DNA of 64,000 nucleotides from NCBI RefSeq assembly GCF_033547095.1, contig NZ_CP137852.1, forward strand, positions 4,489,001 through 4,553,000, in the 5' to 3' direction. Position 1 is the stretch's first letter; every line of letters starts with the position of its first letter. Of this stretch, positions 1 to 8,301 are shown one piece after another. The stretch is from Sediminicoccus rosea (GTDB lineage Bacteria > Pseudomonadota > Alphaproteobacteria > Acetobacterales > Acetobacteraceae). Made by a program: the position numbers and the translations under genes. The notes under the pieces are model-generated. The model had not been told where the DNA came from and ran no database searches. It saw only the letters and a list, made by a program, of their open reading frames with translations.

Positions 1-107
1 GCCGCCTCGGCGCCGCAGAGCGTCACGCGCGCACCTCCCTCGGCGGCGCGCAACGCGCAGCGCGTGCCGGCCGGCCCCGCGCCGATGACCAGGACCTGCT
101 GGCTCAC
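1..107 (-). CDS. FAD/NAD(P)-dependent oxidoreductase, N-terminal fragment
   Basis: Only the first 35 codons are in the window; the rest lies beyond base 1. The reading frame starts at a GTG that overlaps the stop of the ABC ATPase gene as GTGA (104-107), so it is translationally coupled to the nitrate transporter. The N-terminus is a hydrophobic strand followed by GAGPAG, the dinucleotide-binding GxGxxG of a Rossmann fold. By position it is probably the flavoprotein of nitrate or nitrite reduction (NirB/NasB-like or a reductase partner). The fragment is too short to choose between these. The coding frame is clear; the exact function is inference from the operon. Confidence 0.6.
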   Translation of the reverse strand, partial: MSQQVLVIGAGPAGTRCALRAAEGGARVTLCGAEA

Positions 108-895
108 GCGGCGGCCGGCAGCGCGTGGCGCTCATGCAAGAAGCGCAGCACCGCCTCGCGCGCCGCCAGGAAGCGCGGCTCGGAGGCCAACGCCAGGCGA
201 TCGCGCGGGCGGGGCAGATCCACCTCAAGCACCTCGCCGATGGTGGCGTTGGGGCCGTTCGTCATCATCACGATTCGGTCGGAGAGCAGCACCGCCTCAT
301 CCACGTCATGCGTGATCATCATGATGGTGGTGCCGAGCCGCGCATGGATCGCCATCACCTGGTCCTGAAGATGCGCGCGGGTCAGCGCGTCCAGCGCGCC
401 GAAGGGCTCGTCCAGCAGCAGCACCTTGGGCTTCATGGCCAGCGCGCGGGCGATGCCGACGCGCTGCTTCATGCCGCCCGAGATCTCGGCCGGGCGCTTC
501 TGAGCGTGCCCCTCCATGCGGACCAGGGCAAGGTTCTCCATGGTCCAGGCATGGCGCTCGGCGCGGGACATATTGCGCCCCACCGTGCGGTCCACCGCGA
601 GCTTCACGTTCTCATAGACGGTGAGCCAGGGCAGCAGCGAATGATTCTGGAAGACCACGGCACGGTCCGGCCCCGGCTCCGTCACCTCGCTGCCTTCCAG
701 CAACACGCCGCCGAGCGTGGCGGGAAGCAGGCCCGCCACCACGTTCAGCAGGGTGGACTTGCCGCAGCCGGAATGGCCGATCACGGCGACGTACTGCCCC
801 TGCTCCACCTTCAGGTCGATGCTGTTCAGCACCAGCGGCGCCGTCGGCCCGAAGCGGACCGAAAGGCGGGAGACTTCGAGAAAGCTGCGGTTCAT
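104..895 (-). CDS. nrtD: Nitrate/nitrite ABC transporter ATP-binding protein (NrtD-like)
   Basis: 263 residues, the usual length for single-domain NrtD/SsuB/TauB-type ATPases. Walker A is GHSGCGKST near residue 43, the signature is SGGMKQRVGIARAL, and Walker B is VLLLDEPFGALDA. The SGGMKQR variant of LSGGQ is typical of the nitrate/sulfonate/taurine subfamily. It would energise import through the NrtB-like permease encoded 13 bases upstream. It lies between a permease/receptor pair and an FAD oxidoreductase in an operon headed by nasT and nasS. That context favours nitrate over sulfonate or taurine, although sequence alone would not separate these substrates. Confidence 0.85.
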   Translation of the reverse strand: MNRSFLEVSRLSVRFGPTAPLVLNSIDLKVEQGQYVAVIGHSGCGKSTLLNVVAGLLPATLGGVLLEGSEVTEPGPDRAVVFQNHSLLPWLTVYENVKLAVDRTVGRNMSRAERHAWTMENLALVRMEGHAQKRPAEISGGMKQRVGIARALAMKPKVLLLDEPFGALDALTRAHLQDQVMAIHARLGTTIMMITHDVDEAVLLSDRIVMMTNGPNATIGEVLEVDLPRPRDRLALASEPRFLAAREAVLRFLHERHALPAAA

Positions 896-908
896 GGCGC
901 GTGCCCCT

Positions 909-1799
909 TCACTGCTCGGTGGTGCCGCGCGTCACCGCGCGACCGGCGAAGGCCATGATCCGGTCCAGCACGAAGCCGACGAGCCCGACATAGATCAGCG
1001 CCACGATGATGTCCGAGAGGTTGGAGCTGTTCCACGCATCCCAGATGAAGAAGCCGATGCCAACGCCGCCGATCAGCATCTCGGCCGCGATGATGGCGAG
1101 CCAGGAGAGGCCGACGCCGATGCGCAGCCCCGTGAAGATGTAGGGCGCCGCCGCCGGCACCACGATGCGCAGGAACCACTCATGCGGGCGCAGGCGGATG
1201 ACGCGCGCGACGTTGCGGTAGTCGGCCGGCACGTTCCGCACGCCGACGGCGGTGTTGATGATGATGGGCCAGACCGCAGTGATGAAGATCACGAAGATCG
1301 CGGAAGGCTGCGCCTCGCGGAAGGCGGCCAGCGAGAGCGGCAGCCAGGCCAGCGGCGGCACGGTGCGCAGCACCTGGAAGATCGGATCCAGGCCGCGCAT
1401 CGCGAGCTTCGAGGAACCGACCAGCATGCCCAGCCCCACGCCCACCACGACGGCCAGCGCGAAGCCCAGCGCCACGCGCTGCAGGCTGGCGGCGAGATGC
1501 AGGCCGAGGCCCTTGTCCAACCCGCCCCGGTCATAGAAGGGGTTGAGGATCAGCTCCTTCGTGTCGCTCCAGACGCGTGAGGGCGGCGGCAAGGTCGCCC
1601 CCGGCCCGGAGCAGAGCCATTCCCAGAGCAGGAAGAGCCCCGCGACGACGAGCAGCGGCGGGATGACCACCGCCAGCGTCTCGTTCACGCGGCGCATGAA
1701 GGCGGAGGCCCAGGCCTTGGATGACCGGGGCGCGGGCGCCGCGGCGGGCGTGGCGAGGGGCGGCGTGGCCGTGACGGCCGGGGGTGTGATCGCGTTCAT
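909..1799 (-). CDS. nrtB: Nitrate ABC transporter permease (NrtB-like)
   Basis: 296-residue inner-membrane permease of the NrtB/SsuC type. A Pro/Ala-rich cytoplasmic N-terminus of about 40 residues precedes the first membrane segment (around 45-65). The EAA coupling loop region reads as RVIRLRPHEWFLRIVVPAAAP, matching the interface that contacts the ATPase. The C-terminal segments are hydrophobic to the end. It begins 2 bases after the nrtA stop and is followed after 13 bases by the ATPase, so the three form one transporter. Substrate is assigned from the NasS/NasT context. Confidence 0.85.
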   Translation of the reverse strand: MNAITPPAVTATPPLATPAAAPAPRSSKAWASAFMRRVNETLAVVIPPLLVVAGLFLLWEWLCSGPGATLPPPSRVWSDTKELILNPFYDRGGLDKGLGLHLAASLQRVALGFALAVVVGVGLGMLVGSSKLAMRGLDPIFQVLRTVPPLAWLPLSLAAFREAQPSAIFVIFITAVWPIIINTAVGVRNVPADYRNVARVIRLRPHEWFLRIVVPAAAPYIFTGLRIGVGLSWLAIIAAEMLIGGVGIGFFIWDAWNSSNLSDIIVALIYVGLVGFVLDRIMAFAGRAVTRGTTEQ

Positions 1800-1801
1800 G
1801 C

Positions 1802-3067
1802 TCAGGCCGCCGAGAGCTTCTTGATGGAGAGCGAGGCGAGATAGGCCGCCGGATTCTCGGGGTCGAAGACCTTGCCGTCGAAGAAGGTCTCGCGCCCGCG
1901 CGAGGTGCCGCTGGGCGTCTCGCCATTCGGCACGCCGGCCCGGGCGGCGGCGGCGCGCCAGATGTCCTCGCGGTTCACCTGTGCCAGCAGCGGCGCCGTC
2001 TCCAGCCCCTCGGGCAGGATGCCCCAGCGCTGATTCTCGGTCAGGAACCAGAGGTCATGGCTGCGGAAGGGGTAGCTCGCGTGGTCGCGCCAGAACTTCA
2101 TGGTGATGTCGGTGTTGGTGGTGGTGCGGCCATCGCCGTAATCCACCTCGCCGCGCATGCGGCCGATGATGTCGTTCACCGGCACGTTGAACCAGGCGCG
2201 GCGACCCAGGATCTCGCACATCTCCTGCTTGTTGGCCGGCGTGTCGCACCAGCGCGCGGCCTCGATCACGGCCGCCGTCAGCGCCTCGGTGGCTCGCGGG
2301 TTCTGCTGCACGAAGTCGGCGCGCAGCGCCAGGCACTTCTCCGGATGGTCCTTCCAGAACTCGCCGGTGACGAGAGCGGTGTAGCCCAGTCGCTGGTTCA
2401 CCAGCTGCGCGTTCCAGGGTTCGCCCACGCAGAAGGCGTCCATGGTGCCGACGCGCATATTCGCCACCATTTGCGGCGGCGGCACGACAATGGTCGAGAC
2501 GTCGCGCTCCGGGTCGATGCCGGCGGCGGCGAGCCAGTAGCGGATCCACATGTCATGCGTGCCGCCGCGGAAGGTCATCGCCACCTTGCTGTCGCTGTTC
2601 AGCGCACGCCGCAGCGGCGAGGCGTCAAGCCGCGCGCCAAGCTGCATGTGCTTGGCAGCAACGCTGATGGCCTGGCCATTGGTGTTGAGCCGCGCCAGCA
2701 GCGCCATGGGCACGGGCTGGTTGTTCTGGGTGATGCGGCCCATGTGGATCAGATAGGCCATGGGTGTCAGCAGATGTGCGCCGTCAATGCCGCCGCGCCC
2801 GCCGCCCAGCACCAGGTTGTCGCGCGTCGCACCCCAGCTCGCCTGGCGGTTCACCTCCACATCCGGCATGCCATGCTTGGCGAAGAAGCCCTTCTCACGC
2901 GCGATGATGAGCGGCGCGGCATCGGTCAGTGCGATGAAGCCGAAGATCGCCTTGCGGACCTCCGGCGTGGTGCTGCCCTGGGCATGCACGCCCGAGCCGC
3001 TCACCGCCTTTGCGGCGGCGAGGAGGGCGGCGGTGCCGGCGATGGCGTTGCGGCGAGAGAGGCTCAT
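1802..3067 (-). CDS. nrtA: Periplasmic nitrate-binding protein (NrtA-like)
   Basis: 421 residues from the ATG at 3067. That ATG overlaps the nasS stop as ATGA (3064-3067), which is why I chose it over an upstream in-frame start. The N-terminus MSLSRRNAIAGTAALLAAA carries an SRR motif before a short hydrophobic stretch, a possible Tat signal. The mature part is of the NrtA/CmpA family: FGFIALTDAAPLIIAREKGFF, then GIDGAHLLTPM, then DAFCVGEPWNAQLV and the pattern RTTTNTD. CmpA/NrtA proteins bind bicarbonate or nitrate; the operon points to nitrate. It delivers substrate to the permease encoded next. Confidence 0.85.
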   Translation of the reverse strand: MSLSRRNAIAGTAALLAAAKAVSGSGVHAQGSTTPEVRKAIFGFIALTDAAPLIIAREKGFFAKHGMPDVEVNRQASWGATRDNLVLGGGRGGIDGAHLLTPMAYLIHMGRITQNNQPVPMALLARLNTNGQAISVAAKHMQLGARLDASPLRRALNSDSKVAMTFRGGTHDMWIRYWLAAAGIDPERDVSTIVVPPPQMVANMRVGTMDAFCVGEPWNAQLVNQRLGYTALVTGEFWKDHPEKCLALRADFVQQNPRATEALTAAVIEAARWCDTPANKQEMCEILGRRAWFNVPVNDIIGRMRGEVDYGDGRTTTNTDITMKFWRDHASYPFRSHDLWFLTENQRWGILPEGLETAPLLAQVNREDIWRAAAARAGVPNGETPSGTSRGRETFFDGKVFDPENPAAYLASLSIKKLSAA

Positions 3068-4029
3068 GCTTGGGTCTCCAGGAGGGGTTCGGGTTCGTTC
3101 AGGCGGGCCGCGGCATCGCGCCACAGCCCGTCATGGAAGGGAGCGAGGGCCTGCGCGTCGGGGATGGTGCCGGGCATGTGCCCGGCCTCGCGCATGGCGG
3201 AGAGCCAGAGGGCCGCCTCCTCTCGGCGCGGCAGGGTGGCGGCGCGGAAGCGGATCCGGTGTGTCGCGTCGAAGGCGCTCTCGATGGTGGCGGGGCTGAG
3301 CTGCCAGAGCGCGCGGCCGGCCATGATGGAGATGGCCTCCACGCGGTTCTCCGGGTCATCGAGCCAGCGCGCGGCAGCGATGACAGCGGCGGTGGCGGCG
3401 ACCGTCTGCTCGCGATGGGTGGCGAGGTATTCCGTGCTGAAGGCGAGCAGTTTCTCGGGGTGCTCGGGCCAGATCTCCGCCGTGCCGGCAACGACCTGGC
3501 CCGCCCCCATCGCCTCGGCCGCCGCCCCCCAAGGCGCGCCGACGCAGAAGCCGTCAATCTCGCCGGCCGCCAGCCGGTGCGCCATGCGCGGTGGCGGCAC
3601 GGCGGTGAGGCGCACATCGCGCTCGGGGTCCACGCCCTGGGCCAGCAGCCAGCGGCGCAGCAGATAGTTGTGCGAGGAGAAGGGAAAGACGACGGCGAGC
3701 GTCGCGGGCGAACGCCGCGCCTTCAGCTTGGCCGCGAGATCGCCGGCCGCCAGTTCGTTCGAGAGGGTGATGCCATTGCCGTTGCGCGAGAGGCCGCAGG
3801 CCACCTGCAGCCTCGCCTCGACGCCGCCGAGCCCGGCCGCCAGGGCGATGGGCATGGGCGCGAGAAGATGCGCACCATCCAGCGCGGAGAAGGCGAGCTT
3901 GTCACGGATCGCGGCCCAGGAGCCCTCGGGCGAGAGCGCCACGCGCAGGCCGACCGTCTCGAAGAGGCCCAGCGCCTCGGCCACCAGCAGCGGCGCCGCG
4001 TCAAAGAGCGGAACGAAGCCCAGGCGCAT
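3064..4029 (-). CDS. nasS: NasS nitrate sensor (cytoplasmic NrtA-like protein)
   Basis: 321 residues from the ATG at 4029, beginning MRLGFVPLFDAAPLLVAEALG. It is homologous to the neighbouring NrtA (same DGAHLLAPMP and GEIDGFCVGAPWG blocks) but starts directly at the first strand with no signal peptide, as expected for NasS. In characterised systems NasS holds NasT inactive and releases it on binding nitrate or nitrite. A longer open frame extends upstream to 4212 but runs through the hairpin leader and encodes low-complexity sequence, so I rejected it. The gene sits between nasT with its leader and the transporter genes. Confidence 0.85.
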   Translation of the reverse strand: MRLGFVPLFDAAPLLVAEALGLFETVGLRVALSPEGSWAAIRDKLAFSALDGAHLLAPMPIALAAGLGGVEARLQVACGLSRNGNGITLSNELAAGDLAAKLKARRSPATLAVVFPFSSHNYLLRRWLLAQGVDPERDVRLTAVPPPRMAHRLAAGEIDGFCVGAPWGAAAEAMGAGQVVAGTAEIWPEHPEKLLAFSTEYLATHREQTVAATAAVIAAARWLDDPENRVEAISIMAGRALWQLSPATIESAFDATHRIRFRAATLPRREEAALWLSAMREAGHMPGTIPDAQALAPFHDGLWRDAAARLNEPEPLLETQA

Positions 4030-4086
4030 GACGCGCGCGGCCGGACGGATGCGGGGGGTGGGGAGGCCAAGCGGGCGCAAGCGGCA

Positions 4087-4107
4087 GGTCCACGCATCGG
4101 GCGGACC
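4087..4107 (-). promoter_or_regulatory. Possible downstream hairpin in the nas leader
   Basis: On the minus strand the sequence folds as GGTCCGC / GTGGACC with a 7-base loop (7 pairs including one G-U). It lies about 35 bases downstream of the second ANTAR hairpin and upstream of nasS. It could be the terminator or an alternative structure that NasT would relieve. No U-tract follows, so an intrinsic terminator is not demonstrated. Confidence 0.3.
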
Positions 4108-4142
4108 GTCATGGGCCACCGGGAGGAGGGCCGGGCTTGCCA

Positions 4143-4195
4143 GGAATGCGCCATTGCATTCCGCCCGTGGGATGCCTCCTATCGCCAGTGAGGGA
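4143..4195 (-). promoter_or_regulatory. ANTAR target RNA: two hexaloop hairpins in the nasT-nasS leader
   Basis: Read on the minus strand, 4143-4162 is a perfect 7-bp stem (GGAATGC/GCATTCC) with hexaloop AATGGC. Fourteen bases upstream, 4177-4195 forms a weaker stem with an internal loop and hexaloop ACTGGC. Both loops have A at position 1 and G at position 4, the known ANTAR RNA signature of paired small hairpins. The element lies 55 bases downstream of nasT, which encodes an ANTAR protein, and about 114 bases upstream of nasS. I infer that NasT binds it to promote read-through into nasS-nrtABD. Confidence 0.75.
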
Positions 4196-4249
4196 CAGGG
4201 CGCAAGCGGCAAAATGCACGCTTGTTAGGCGAACGAACCTGAGTCGCCT

Positions 4250-4885
4250 CTACTCGATCCGAATTGCCGGTTTTTTATTCAGATAGGCCGCCGCCATGGG
4301 CCCCAGCTTCAGCCGCCGCTCCATCGCCATGCGCTGCAGCCGGCGGTGCGCCTCGGGCTCGGACAGGCCCTCATCGCGCATCAGCCGGCGCTTGGCGGCG
4401 GCGATCTGGTCGCGCTCCTCCAGCGTCGCGCGCGCTTCGGCGAGCTGGGCGCGCAGCGCCTCATGCGCCCGGAACCGCCGGATCGCGACCTCCAGCACCG
4501 GCCGCACCCGCGCGGGCGCCAGGCCCTCCACCACATAGGCGGCGACGCCGGCCTCCAGCGCCGCCTCGATCTGCTCGGGCGCGCCGCGCTCAGCGAAGAG
4601 GACGACAGGGCGAGGCTCGTCACGGTGCAGGGCGCGCATGGATTCCAGCGCATCGCGCGAGGGGTCGTCGAGGTCGCAGACGATGACATCGGCCTGGCTC
4701 GCGCGGACGCGCGCCGTCAGGTCAGCCACGTCGGGCGCGATCGCCACGACGGCACAACCGGCCGCTTCCAGACCCAGGCGCACGGCTTCCGCACGCTCAG
4801 GCTCGCCATCCACCAACAAGACCCGCAGCGCTGATGCCCCCTCATTCGGGCCGCGCTGGCGTATTCCCCGCTCCCTGCATGCCAC
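4250..4885 (-). CDS. nasT: NasT, ANTAR-domain antitermination response regulator
   Basis: About 211 residues. Residues 20-130 form a receiver-like domain (LRVLLVDGEPERAEAV, then DVIVCDLDDPSRDAL). A coiled segment leads to a C-terminal ANTAR RNA-binding domain with the typical AAAKRRLMRDEGLSEPEAH and a following helix. NasT binds paired hairpins in nas leader RNA and prevents termination; NasS sequesters it without nitrate. The frame opens with a GTG at 4885 lacking an obvious Shine-Dalgarno sequence, so the true start could be a few codons further in, nearer LRVLLVD. It is the first gene of the operon, and its RNA target lies immediately downstream. Confidence 0.85.
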   Translation of the reverse strand: MACRERGIRQRGPNEGASALRVLLVDGEPERAEAVRLGLEAAGCAVVAIAPDVADLTARVRASQADVIVCDLDDPSRDALESMRALHRDEPRPVVLFAERGAPEQIEAALEAGVAAYVVEGLAPARVRPVLEVAIRRFRAHEALRAQLAEARATLEERDQIAAAKRRLMRDEGLSEPEAHRRLQRMAMERRLKLGPMAAAYLNKKPAIRIE

Positions 4886-5114
4886 GGATGCGGCCGGCGG
4901 GAAAAGACCGGAAGGTTTTGTCTTTCCGATTTGGCATTATTTTCCTATGATACCGGTATGACGAATCCCCTCCCCTCCTCCCTCTCCTGCTCCAGCCGCT
5001 TCCGGCGGGCGGGCGATTTGTCCGAAAGCGGGGTGCTGCGAAAAATGCACGGCGCTGAACTGCCGCGGCCCGGGCGGCCGCGCTAGCCTCGCCGGGTTGA
5101 GGGAGGGAACGACC
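4886..5114. promoter_or_regulatory. Divergent promoter region of nasT and the isomerase gene, with palindrome
   Basis: This 229-base gap holds a locally AT-rich stretch (about 4914-4962) in very GC-rich DNA. It contains a perfect 10-bp palindrome, ATACCGGTAT, at 4950-4959, a candidate operator. A good ribosome-binding site (GGGAGGGAA, 5101-5109) precedes the plus-strand gene. I could not assign -35/-10 boxes with confidence, and no clear sigma-54 site for NtrC control is visible. Confidence 0.4.
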
Positions 5115-5933: not shown

Positions 5934-7348
5934 AATTCCGCTTCCTCGAAGCCGAGCGCTTCGAATGGTCCTTCATGCTGCGCATGCCCTTCCGCTTCGG
6001 CGTCATCACCGTGCGCGACGGCATCCAGGCCGTGGTGCGCACGCGCATCCAGGATGAATCGGGCCGCGAAGCCTGGGGCTGGTCGGCCGAGACGCTGGCC
6101 GCCAAGTGGTTCGACAAGGACCCCGCGCTCAGCGACGCCGACAACCAGCACCAGTTGCGCCGCGCGCTCGAGATCGCCGAGGCACAGTCGCTGGCGGCGG
6201 GGTTCAACACCGCCTTTGGCCATTATGCGGATGCCTATGCCGCGCATGTCGCGGCCTGCGCGGCGGAGGGGCTGAACCCGCTGGTCGCGAGCTTCGGCCG
6301 CGCGCTGTGGGACCGCGCGGCGTTCGACGCGCTGCTGCGCCTGACCGGCCTCTCATTCGACGCGGCGCTGCGCGCCAATCTTGGCGGCATGGCGCCGCAT
6401 GCGCTCATTCCGGACCTCGCGGGCTTCGACTTCGCGGCGATGCTGGCCGAGACGCCGCCGCCCGGCCGCATCCATGCGCGCCACACGGTGGGCCTGGTGG
6501 ACCCGATCACCGCCGCCGACCTGGAGGAGCGGGTGAATGACGGCCTGCCCGAGACGCTGGAAGAGGTCGCCACCACCTACGGCCATGCCTATTGGAAGCT
6601 GAAGGTCGGCGGCCATGTCGAAACCGATGTCGAGCGCCTCTGCCGCATCGCCTCCGTGCTCGACCGTCTGCATGGCGGCTACCACGCGACCCTGGACGGC
6701 AATGAGCAATACGAGGATGCGGAGGGCGCGCTGGCGCTCTGGCGCGCCATGCAGGCCGAGCCGCGGCTGAAGCGGCTCTGCGCCTCCATCCTCTTCATCG
6801 AGCAGCCGGTGAAGCGCGCACGCGCGCTGGAGACGGGCATGTCGGCGCTGGCCGCCGCGCGGCCCGTGATCATTGATGAGAGCGACGGCGCGCTGGACGC
6901 CTTCGTGATCGCCAAGGGGCTCGGCTATGCCGGCGTCTCCACCAAGGCCTGCAAGGGCATGTGGCGCTCGCTCATCAATCTGGCGCGCTGCCGCAAATGG
7001 GGCGACGGGCATTTCATGTCGGCCGAGGATCTGACGACGCTGGCGGGCATCTGCGTGCAGCAGGACCTGGCGCTGGTGAGCGCGATGGGCCTGACGCATG
7101 TGGAGCGCAACGGGCACCACTTCATCGATGGATTCAGCGGGCGGCCCAAGGCCGAGGCGGTGCGCTTCATGGAGGCGCATCCCGATCTCTATGCGGACAC
7201 GCCGCGCGGCCCGCGCCTGAAGATCCGCCAGGGCGGGCTGGAGATCGGGAGCCTCGCCGTTCCCGGCTTCGGCAGCGTGGAGACGCCGGATGTATCGGCG
7301 ATGCGCGCGATGGAGAGGGCGGCGTGGCCTCGCCAGGGGCAGCCCTAG
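5930..7348 (+). CDS. Enolase superfamily protein (mandelate racemase/muconate lactonizing-like)
   Basis: 472 residues, starting at the ATGA overlap with the isomerase. The C-terminal barrel carries the superfamily landmarks in order: YWKLKVGG (KxK catalytic lysines), TLDGNEQYED (first metal Asp), LFIEQP (Glu), VIIDESD (Asp/Glu) and STKACKG (second-half Lys). The N-terminal capping part has about 200 residues, longer than usual. Such enzymes abstract a proton alpha to a carboxylate, typically dehydrating or racemising sugar acids. The natural substrate is unknown. It shares a CTAG with the convergent Bug gene: both stops fall within 7345-7348. Confidence 0.75.
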   Translation: MKFRFLEAERFEWSFMLRMPFRFGVITVRDGIQAVVRTRIQDESGREAWGWSAETLAAKWFDKDPALSDADNQHQLRRALEIAEAQSLAAGFNTAFGHYADAYAAHVAACAAEGLNPLVASFGRALWDRAAFDALLRLTGLSFDAALRANLGGMAPHALIPDLAGFDFAAMLAETPPPGRIHARHTVGLVDPITAADLEERVNDGLPETLEEVATTYGHAYWKLKVGGHVETDVERLCRIASVLDRLHGGYHATLDGNEQYEDAEGALALWRAMQAEPRLKRLCASILFIEQPVKRARALETGMSALAAARPVIIDESDGALDAFVIAKGLGYAGVSTKACKGMWRSLINLARCRKWGDGHFMSAEDLTTLAGICVQQDLALVSAMGLTHVERNGHHFIDGFSGRPKAEAVRFMEAHPDLYADTPRGPRLKIRQGGLEIGSLAVPGFGSVETPDVSAMRAMERAAWPRQGQP

Positions 7349-8301
7349 TCCACCGTGATCCGGGCCTCCCGCACGACCCGGCCCCATTTCTCGGTTTCCG
7401 CCTGGAGGAAGCCCGCCAGCGCCTCGGGCGTGCTCGCCTCCGGGTCCACGCCCGCATTGGTCATGCGCTGCATGGCGGCGGGCGTGGCGAGTGCGGCGCG
7501 CAACGCCTCGGAGAGCCGCGCGATGGCTGCGGGCGGCGTGCCGCCGGTCGTCATCACGGCACCCCAGGAGGTGGCCGTGGCCTGGGGGTAGCCCTGCTCG
7601 GCCAGCGTCGGCACATCGGGCATCAGGGGATGGCGGCGTGGGCCGGTCGCGGCCAGGGCACGCAGTCGCCCCTCGCGCACCGGGCCGACCGTCGCCGCGA
7701 TCTGCACCAGCATCATCTGGATGGTGCCGGACATGAGGTCCGCCATGGCACCGCCCGAGCCGCGATACGGCACGTGCAGCAGCTCGATGCCGGCGGCGAG
7801 GCGGAACAGCTCGGCAGCCGTGTGCGTCGAGGCGCCATGGCCTGAGGAACCAAAGGAGAGCTGCCCTGGCCGCGCCTTCGCCAGCGCCACGAAATCCGCG
7901 AGATTGCGGACCGGCAGCGAGGGCGGGACCACGATCACCATGTCGCTCGTGTAGGCCATGCCGACCGGCGCCAGGTCGCGCGCCGGGTTGAAGCCCATGT
8001 TGCGGTAGATATGGATGTTGGTGCTGAGCAGGCCGGTCACGCCCATCAGCAGCGTGTGCCCATCGGGCGCCGCGCGCGCCACCATCTCGCCGCCGATATT
8101 GCCGCCCGAGCCGCCGCGGTTCTCCACGATGACAGGCTGGCCGAGACGCTCGCCCATCGGCTCGGCCACGATGCGCGCGGCCACATCCGTGCTGCCGCCG
8201 GCGACGAAGGGCACGACCATGCGGATCGGCCGGGTCGGCGCCCAGGATTGCGCCAGCGCGGGCGCGGCCAGCGGCGTGGCGAGCAGGGCGCGGCGCAGCA
8301 T
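7345..8301 (-). CDS. Bug/TctC-family tripartite tricarboxylate receptor
   Basis: 318 residues with an N-terminal signal peptide ending around LAAPALAQS. The Bug signatures are all present: PTRPIRMVVPFVAGGSTD, VENRGGSGGNIG, PDGHTLLM, LLHVPYRGSGGAM and the C-terminal EKWGRVVREARI. These periplasmic proteins bind carboxylates or other small polar compounds for TctAB-type transport or for sensing. No tctA or tctB is nearby. It follows a second Bug gene (stop to start 3 bases) at the end of the dehydrogenase/DUF993/isomerase operon, so its ligand is probably that pathway's substrate. Confidence 0.85.
   Translation of the reverse strand: MLRRALLATPLAAPALAQSWAPTRPIRMVVPFVAGGSTDVAARIVAEPMGERLGQPVIVENRGGSGGNIGGEMVARAAPDGHTLLMGVTGLLSTNIHIYRNMGFNPARDLAPVGMAYTSDMVIVVPPSLPVRNLADFVALAKARPGQLSFGSSGHGASTHTAAELFRLAAGIELLHVPYRGSGGAMADLMSGTIQMMLVQIAATVGPVREGRLRALAATGPRRHPLMPDVPTLAEQGYPQATATSWGAVMTTGGTPPAAIARLSEALRAALATPAAMQRMTNAGVDPEASTPEALAGFLQAETEKWGRVVREARITVD

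Follow-up and report, generated by a model that had tools for sequence, protein, structure and literature searches.

The 64,000-nt window, by which we mean the whole stretch of DNA analysed here, carries near one edge a gene for a receiver-ANTAR protein, nasT, followed on the same strand by nasS and the genes of a nitrate transporter (Table 1). The co-oriented nasT and nasS are separated by 169 nt and have the composition of a NasS–NasT two-component system, with a receiver-ANTAR NasT adjoining an NrtA-like NasS. The PF03861 match of the NasT product (1.8e-12) is the sole ANTAR-family match at E ≤ 0.001 in the whole genome. The nearest named relative among the 80 fetched loci is Roseococcus sp. 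SDR, whose NasT is 97% identical. Ahead of the alternative ATG of nasS the reading frame is open in the window and in loci L032 and L033, where it encodes nearly the same peptide, and contains stops in L034 and L036. Upstream of nasT, at 4936–4964 on the minus strand, there is a sigma-70-like promoter, TCGTCA-17-AATAAT (one found, 0.1 expected).

Past the window edge, the same genome continues with co-oriented genes for a NirB-like FAD protein (score under the cut-off of the model), a nitrite/sulfite reductase, a product that matches sulfite reductase subunit alpha, a molybdopterin oxidoreductase whose closest models, Fdh-alpha and NasC/NasA, are matched under their cut-offs, and a sirohaem synthase. 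The row of nasS, nrtABC and reductase genes looks like an assimilatory nitrate gene row and is a candidate operon.

Table 1. Genes and leader elements of the nasT–nasS region, in window coordinates
Feature	Position	Strand	Basis and remarks
nasT	4250..4885	-	Receiver + ANTAR domain protein; Pfam PF00072 and PF03861
nasS	3064..4080	-	NMT1_2 (NasS-like); start probably the TTG at 4080, with the ATG at 4029 as alternative
nrtA-like nitrate transporter substrate-binding protein	1802..3067	-	PF13379; name from position beside nrtB and nrtC
nrtB, nitrate ABC transporter permease	909..1799	-	TIGR01183
nrtC, nitrate ABC transporter ATPase	104..895	-	TIGR01184
Possible sigma-70 promoter TTGCGC-18-TAGGAG	4176..4205	-	p = 0.65 alone; just upstream of P1
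P1 of ANTAR-target RNA	4143..4162	-	GGAATGC[AATGGC]GCATTCC; covariation and covariance-model match
Linker P1–P2	4121..4142	-	22 nt
P2	4100..4120	-	GGTGGCC[CATGAC]GGTCCGCC, or GGTGGCCC[ATGAC]GGTCCGCC with a 5-nt loop; located by alignment to relatives
Alternative (OFF) hairpin GGTCCGC-CCGATGC-GTGGACC	4087..4107	-	P2 3' arm with nasS SD region; excludes P2
SD-containing segment GTGGACC	4087..4093	-	GGA ends 8 nt before start codon

Comparison of the nasT–nasS gap across relatives drew on 30 loci of the same family, the locus of the window included, and on 80 named loci. Of the latter, 75 yielded a gap of usable length; the five left out were L061, which has an inserted gene, L079 and L107, for which the filter gave no NasS match, and L110 and L111, where nasS precedes nasT. 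Two of the 75, L108 and L109, are Zoogloeaceae and were handled as an outgroup, so that 73 named loci and the window make up a set of 74 leaders. The outgroup loci, both from metagenome-assembled genomes (MAGs), have the order nasT–leader–nasS and an ANTAR-like motif, the second hairpin of which overlaps a long hairpin. All 74 leaders have the order nasT–leader–nasS; the initial annotation, which placed the element downstream of the ANTAR gene and ahead of nasS, was thus correct on this point.

Between the ANTAR gene and nasS, the window contains a hairpin with a perfect 7-bp stem and a hexaloop, AATGGC, carrying A1 and G4. It had been picked out in the initial annotation, is confirmed here and is referred to as P1. 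In each leader, P1 was taken as the best-scoring A1/G4 hexaloop hairpin within 100 nt before the second hairpin, P2. Its score has a median of 18.5 over the 74 leaders, compared with 4.0 in dinucleotide shuffles, and reaches p ≤ 0.05 in 68 of them; P1 is weak (score <13) in seven (L045, L047, L089, L092, L093, L099 and L105). Only A1 and G4 had been required of the hexaloop, and yet the loop is AAYGGC in 50/74 leaders, against 1.8% of null winners. A2 and the closing C:G pair, neither of which was selected for, are invariant in 40 aligned rows (C:G in 39/39 distinct rows), and over all 74 leaders loop position 2 differs only in L066 and L076.

The P1 stem covaries strongly in Acetobacteraceae. 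In the 40 aligned copies, 39 of them distinct, there are 89 double-change cells, compared with 32.2 ± 3.9 in column shuffles (0/500) and at most 26 in slid controls, and 90.8% of cells are paired, a share that falls to 56.1% in shuffles and does not exceed 49.5% in slid controls. The number of pairs changed on both sides (6/7 in P1) is non-discriminating as a measure of covariation, since shuffles average 5.9. Covariation in homologous leaders had been proposed as a check on the element; run on the corrected hairpins described here, this check was passed.

The correction concerns the partner of P1. The initial annotation had paired P1 with a hairpin at 4177–4195 (minus strand), 14 bases away. 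That candidate was rejected: it has only two contiguous base pairs, tc[ACTGGC]ga, below the 3-bp minimum for ANTAR hairpins of Ramesh et al. 2012 (PMC3369931). It is not conserved: in the 75 nt upstream of P1 in the seven nearest relatives, L032–L038, there is no A1/G4 hexaloop hairpin of at least 3 contiguous bp, and the two matches in L037 are of 2 bp and lie elsewhere. The rejected hairpin overlaps the sigma-70-like promoter candidate of Table 1. One of the two proposed ANTAR hairpins therefore stands and the other does not. The true partner, P2, lies downstream of P1, so the linker in the window is that given in Table 1 rather than 14 bases.

P2 of the window has a stem of four contiguous base pairs including one G-U when read with a hexaloop, or of 2 + 5 bp around a mismatch when read with a pentaloop, so that in both readings it joins P1 as a second hairpin of at least 3 bp across a linker. 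The family form is GCGGTCC[AATGGC]GGYCCGC, usually with an internal mismatch. P2 was picked by likeness to this consensus with a bonus for A1 and G4 (in 5/74 leaders by a second pattern), and the resulting counts, A1 in 65/74 and G4 in 74/74 leaders, are biased for this reason; the C:G pair closing the loop, found in 74/74, is likewise from P2 copies picked by consensus. A C:G pair also closes each loop in NasR SELEX (PMC7496416). Scored together, P1 and P2 have 86 double-change cells, compared with 31.8 ± 4.0 in shuffles. Covariation within P2 is limited: both sides change in only three pairs, and the third row, counted from the loop, is unpaired in 23/34 rows. The P1–P2 linker spans 18–50 nt over the 74 leaders, with a median of 25 nt, and so lies outside the 5–12 nt of the Enterococcus faecalis eut leaders, where lengthening to 14 nt drastically cut induction (PMC3369931).

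The hexaloop of P2 in the window, CATGAC, has C1 and G4. C1 occurs in eight leaders, the window and L032–L038, which are Roseococcus, Rubritepida, Sabulicella and MAGs; L093 has G1. The Roseococcus-type P2 departs from the A1/G4 rule. Next to the P2 of L049, GCGGCCC[AATGAC]GGTCCGC, the window form looks like the product of the loss of one A from the loop. Mutation of A1 of P2 lowered induction in the EutV system (PMC3369931), and the Roseococcus-type clade is a natural test of the A1 rule.

A covariance model, R1, was built from 34 leaders. On the window, itself a training member, it finds P1 and P2 together at 52.5 bits, and it recovers 36/37 held-out nasT–nasS loci at E ≤ 0.011, missing L093; the loci tested and those used for training are related. 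In the window's genome there is one confident match (5.9e-7), the next best being at 0.13; of the nine further matches (E 0.13–7.7), the four inspected by eye, L113–L116, are not leader-like. A class-wide search under stricter filters gave matches in 6/289 genomes at E ≤ 0.01. Besides the window's own genome, only L123 among these has NasT and NasS matches, in the order nasT–nasS–leader; the other four, L124–L127, have neither. Rfam at gathering thresholds finds only a tRNA in the window, and the whole leader folds with an unremarkable minimum free energy (z = −0.28). The corrected, covarying hairpins uphold the ANTAR-target RNA placed between nasT and nasS by the initial annotation, and we regard the leader as almost certainly a target of NasT.

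Analysis of the sequence that follows P2 reveals a second fold. In the window, the 3' arm of P2 (GGTCCGC, 4107–4101) is complementary to the segment containing the nasS Shine–Dalgarno (SD) sequence (GTGGACC, 4093–4087), and this pairing and P2 are mutually exclusive. The unpaired probability of the SD is 0.01 in the alternative, OFF, fold and 0.51 with P2 forced. The SD is weak (−3.0 kcal/mol, with a TTG start), and for the window alone its pairing does not differ significantly from that in shuffles (p = 0.12).

Among the 74 leaders, nasS starts were sought 17–55 nt after P2, and a start with an SD-like match was found in 71, at a median of 32 nt after P2; L046, L068 and L096 were dropped. For 34 leader clusters at 80% identity, the expected number of pairs between the P2 3' arm and the SD is 7.21, compared with 3.28 in plain shuffles and 4.09 when the SD is left in place during shuffling (0/200 sets each). 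Swapping the downstream parts among loci gives 6.63 ± 0.30 expected pairs (P = 0.025), a result that favours co-evolution over an effect of composition alone. The first start-codon rule had given implausible starts at a few loci, and the tests were repeated with the 17–55 nt rule; under the first rule, with 37 clusters, the swap gave P = 0.020 and its Wilcoxon version P = 0.079. The pairing reaches p ≤ 0.05 for single leaders in only 22/74. With P2 forced, SD accessibility goes up by at least 0.1 in 33/74 leaders, changes by less than 0.1 in 31 and drops by at least 0.1 in 10, and the mean rises from 0.26 to 0.37; the close relatives L035, L037 and L038 show no gain. Overall, there is a tendency for the nasS SD region to be masked in the alternative fold, and we lean towards a mechanism in which formation of P2 frees the SD of nasS.

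The initial annotation had assigned the element to antitermination. On this account the hairpin overlapping P2 would be a terminator, with a poor U-tract or assisted by Rho, whose formation NasT binding prevents. The overlap topology matches such a scheme, which is the established mode for NasR, EutV, AmiR and NasT (PMC3369931, PMC7496416), and the many leaders in which P2 formation brings no gain in SD accessibility are consistent with it. No intrinsic terminator overlapping P2 was found in the window region: the terminator scan returned no terminator-like site at 3900–5000, though shuffles average only 0.3. That scan also overlooked the terminator-like hairpins of L108 and L109, for which reason the count of T residues is the better evidence. 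Between P2 and the nasS start, no 8-nt stretch contains more than 4 T in 71/74 leaders, and the maximum is 5 in the remaining three; in L108 and L109 it is 7, a value reached even inside the first 40 nt past P2, and the T-tract immediately follows a long hairpin of which the P2 3' arm forms part. At the same leader position, these two loci thus have a textbook-like terminator design, unlike the 74 leaders. Their shared gene order, overlapping hairpin and T-rich tract lend antitermination some weight, but the lack of a terminator-like site in the window region and the low T counts of the 74 leaders leave it unsupported as the mechanism, and pairing of the SD exceeds that in shuffles. We consider antitermination here unlikely.

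On one reading, the terminator-like hairpin at this position in two betaproteobacteria would mark an exchange of the output part with retention of the ANTAR docking part. The broader proposal, that the leader is a natural ANTAR switch activating translation with nasS as the first gene, that its output part was exchanged in betaproteobacteria, and that the Roseococcus-type P2 works without A1, is put forward tentatively; we place it close to an even chance, and if anything slightly on the doubtful side.

The leader of the nasS row probably has its own promoter, to judge from motifs upstream of P1. The best −10 element ends 8–16 nt before P1 in 29/74 leaders, compared with 12.0 ± 3.2 in mononucleotide shuffles, and TTGA[CT] occurs 33–50 nt before P1 in 24/74, compared with 1.7 ± 1.4; the window itself has TTGCG, and a sigma-70 match reaches p ≤ 0.05 alone in only 4/74 leaders. 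In 12 leaders, all among L090–L106, a strong sigma-54-type site (TGGCAC-N5-TTGCW) 28–45 nt before P1 replaces the sigma-70-like site, which suggests direct nitrogen control in that lineage; L085 has a thirteenth, weaker site. At 4201–4219 the window has a GTGCATTTT-like stretch followed by CGCTTGCG, and by eye the pattern can be seen again ahead of P1 in most Roseococcus-type leaders, of which there are eight.

Variants of the gene order bear on which genes the leader serves, since its position before or after nasS determines whether the controlled unit includes or excludes nasS. In L027 and L030, from the same family, nasT adjoins nasS and the R1 match follows nasS, ahead of a gene that by eye is transporter-like; with L123, this makes three loci in which R1 matches after an adjacent nasT–nasS pair, two of the three in the same family. 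In L079 (Roseomonas pecuniae) nasT and the leader are kept and nrtB comes directly next. The 12.6-kb locus has no NasS or NrtA match at E ≤ 1e-10, and NasT there may therefore be without its inhibitor.

The leader could serve only the distal nrt and reductase genes by polarity, its control of nasS being incidental and nasS being expressed by read-through from nasT. Such an arrangement is in keeping with the common orientation and the gap of nasT and nasS in the window, and nasTS are co-transcribed in Paracoccus (PMC5424462). It is nevertheless improbable, as the leader directly precedes nasS and its SD, and as in L061, where an unrelated gene (6723–7586, glycosyltransferase-like by eye) has been inserted between nasT and the leader, the leader remains with nasS. 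Repression of translation by NasT bound beside the ribosome site, a mode reported for ANTAR RNAs of mycobacteria (PMC8164766) and one that the 20 nt from the end of P2 to the window start codon might allow, is very improbable, because the mutual exclusion of P2 and the SD-pairing hairpin predicts activation and because repression by nitrate would turn off nitrate-use genes while nitrate is present.

As the best explanation of the whole we favour, with modest confidence, an ANTAR leader of the nasS–nrtABC–reductase row through which NasT frees the nasS SD and NasS feeds back on NasT. When nitrate is lacking, NasS would hold NasT, the P2 3' arm would pair with the SD segment, and nasS would be poorly translated, as would, through polarity, the genes that follow. 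Once nitrate or nitrite is present, NasS would let NasT go, a step modelled on Paracoccus denitrificans, where NasT binds the nasA leader RNA and the NasS–NasT complex dissociates with nitrate (PMC5424462, PMC3795266). The freed NasT would bind both loops and stabilise P1–P2, exposing the SD of nasS. Newly made NasS would then recapture NasT in a self-titrating negative feedback, NasT driving the output of its own inhibitor because nasS is the first gene controlled. The suggestion of the initial annotation that NasT controls nasS and the genes behind it is thus supported as a reading of the nasT–leader–nasS arrangement. With nasS under NasT, there would be a simple, testable nitrate-sensing feedback circuit in Roseococcus, Roseomonas, Belnapia and their relatives.

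If the preferred reading is true, a conserved family whose ANTAR fold exposes a ribosome site represents a second ANTAR output. The two outputs would parallel those of riboswitches, which use either terminators or SD-sequestering folds. An ANTAR domain is also carried by NmPAL. In the NmPAL riboptoregulator (PMC11381354), protein binding likewise relieves a cis-repressed translation start, but that system is engineered and light-controlled. ANTAR RNAs close to ribosome sites have been on record since 2012 (PMC3369931), but among the results listed by searches of open-licence papers we saw none that described an ANTAR leader ahead of nasS or natural activation of translation by an ANTAR system.

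The leader resembles the dual-hexaloop ANTAR RNAs of eutP, nasF and amiE (PMC3369931) in having two small hairpins with a C:G closing pair, an A1/G4 loop in P1 and in most family copies of P2, a P2 that overlaps a mutually exclusive fold, and an association with nitrogen genes and an adjacent cognate ANTAR protein. It differs from them in that there is no terminator T-tract and the alternative fold tends to cover the SD, in its linker of 18–50 nt rather than 5–12, and in the loss of A1 from the Roseococcus-type P2. The NasT–NasS pair is shared with the nasTS system of P. denitrificans (PMC5424462, PMC3795266). There the nasA leader follows nasS, which lies outside the controlled unit, whereas here nasS would be the first controlled gene; the order in L027 and L030 is that published for Paracoccus (PMC5424462). 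Antitermination is the role for which ANTAR proteins are chiefly known; in the natural translational examples that we found with a reported effect, that effect is repression (PMC8164766). With those actinobacterial RNAs, which overlap the ribosome site, the present leader has in common a proposed action at translation initiation. In those RNAs, however, the hairpins themselves contain the SD or the start codon, and for mycobacteria binding is reported to be repressive (PMC8164766); here, by contrast, the SD lies outside the hairpins and the ANTAR fold should free it.
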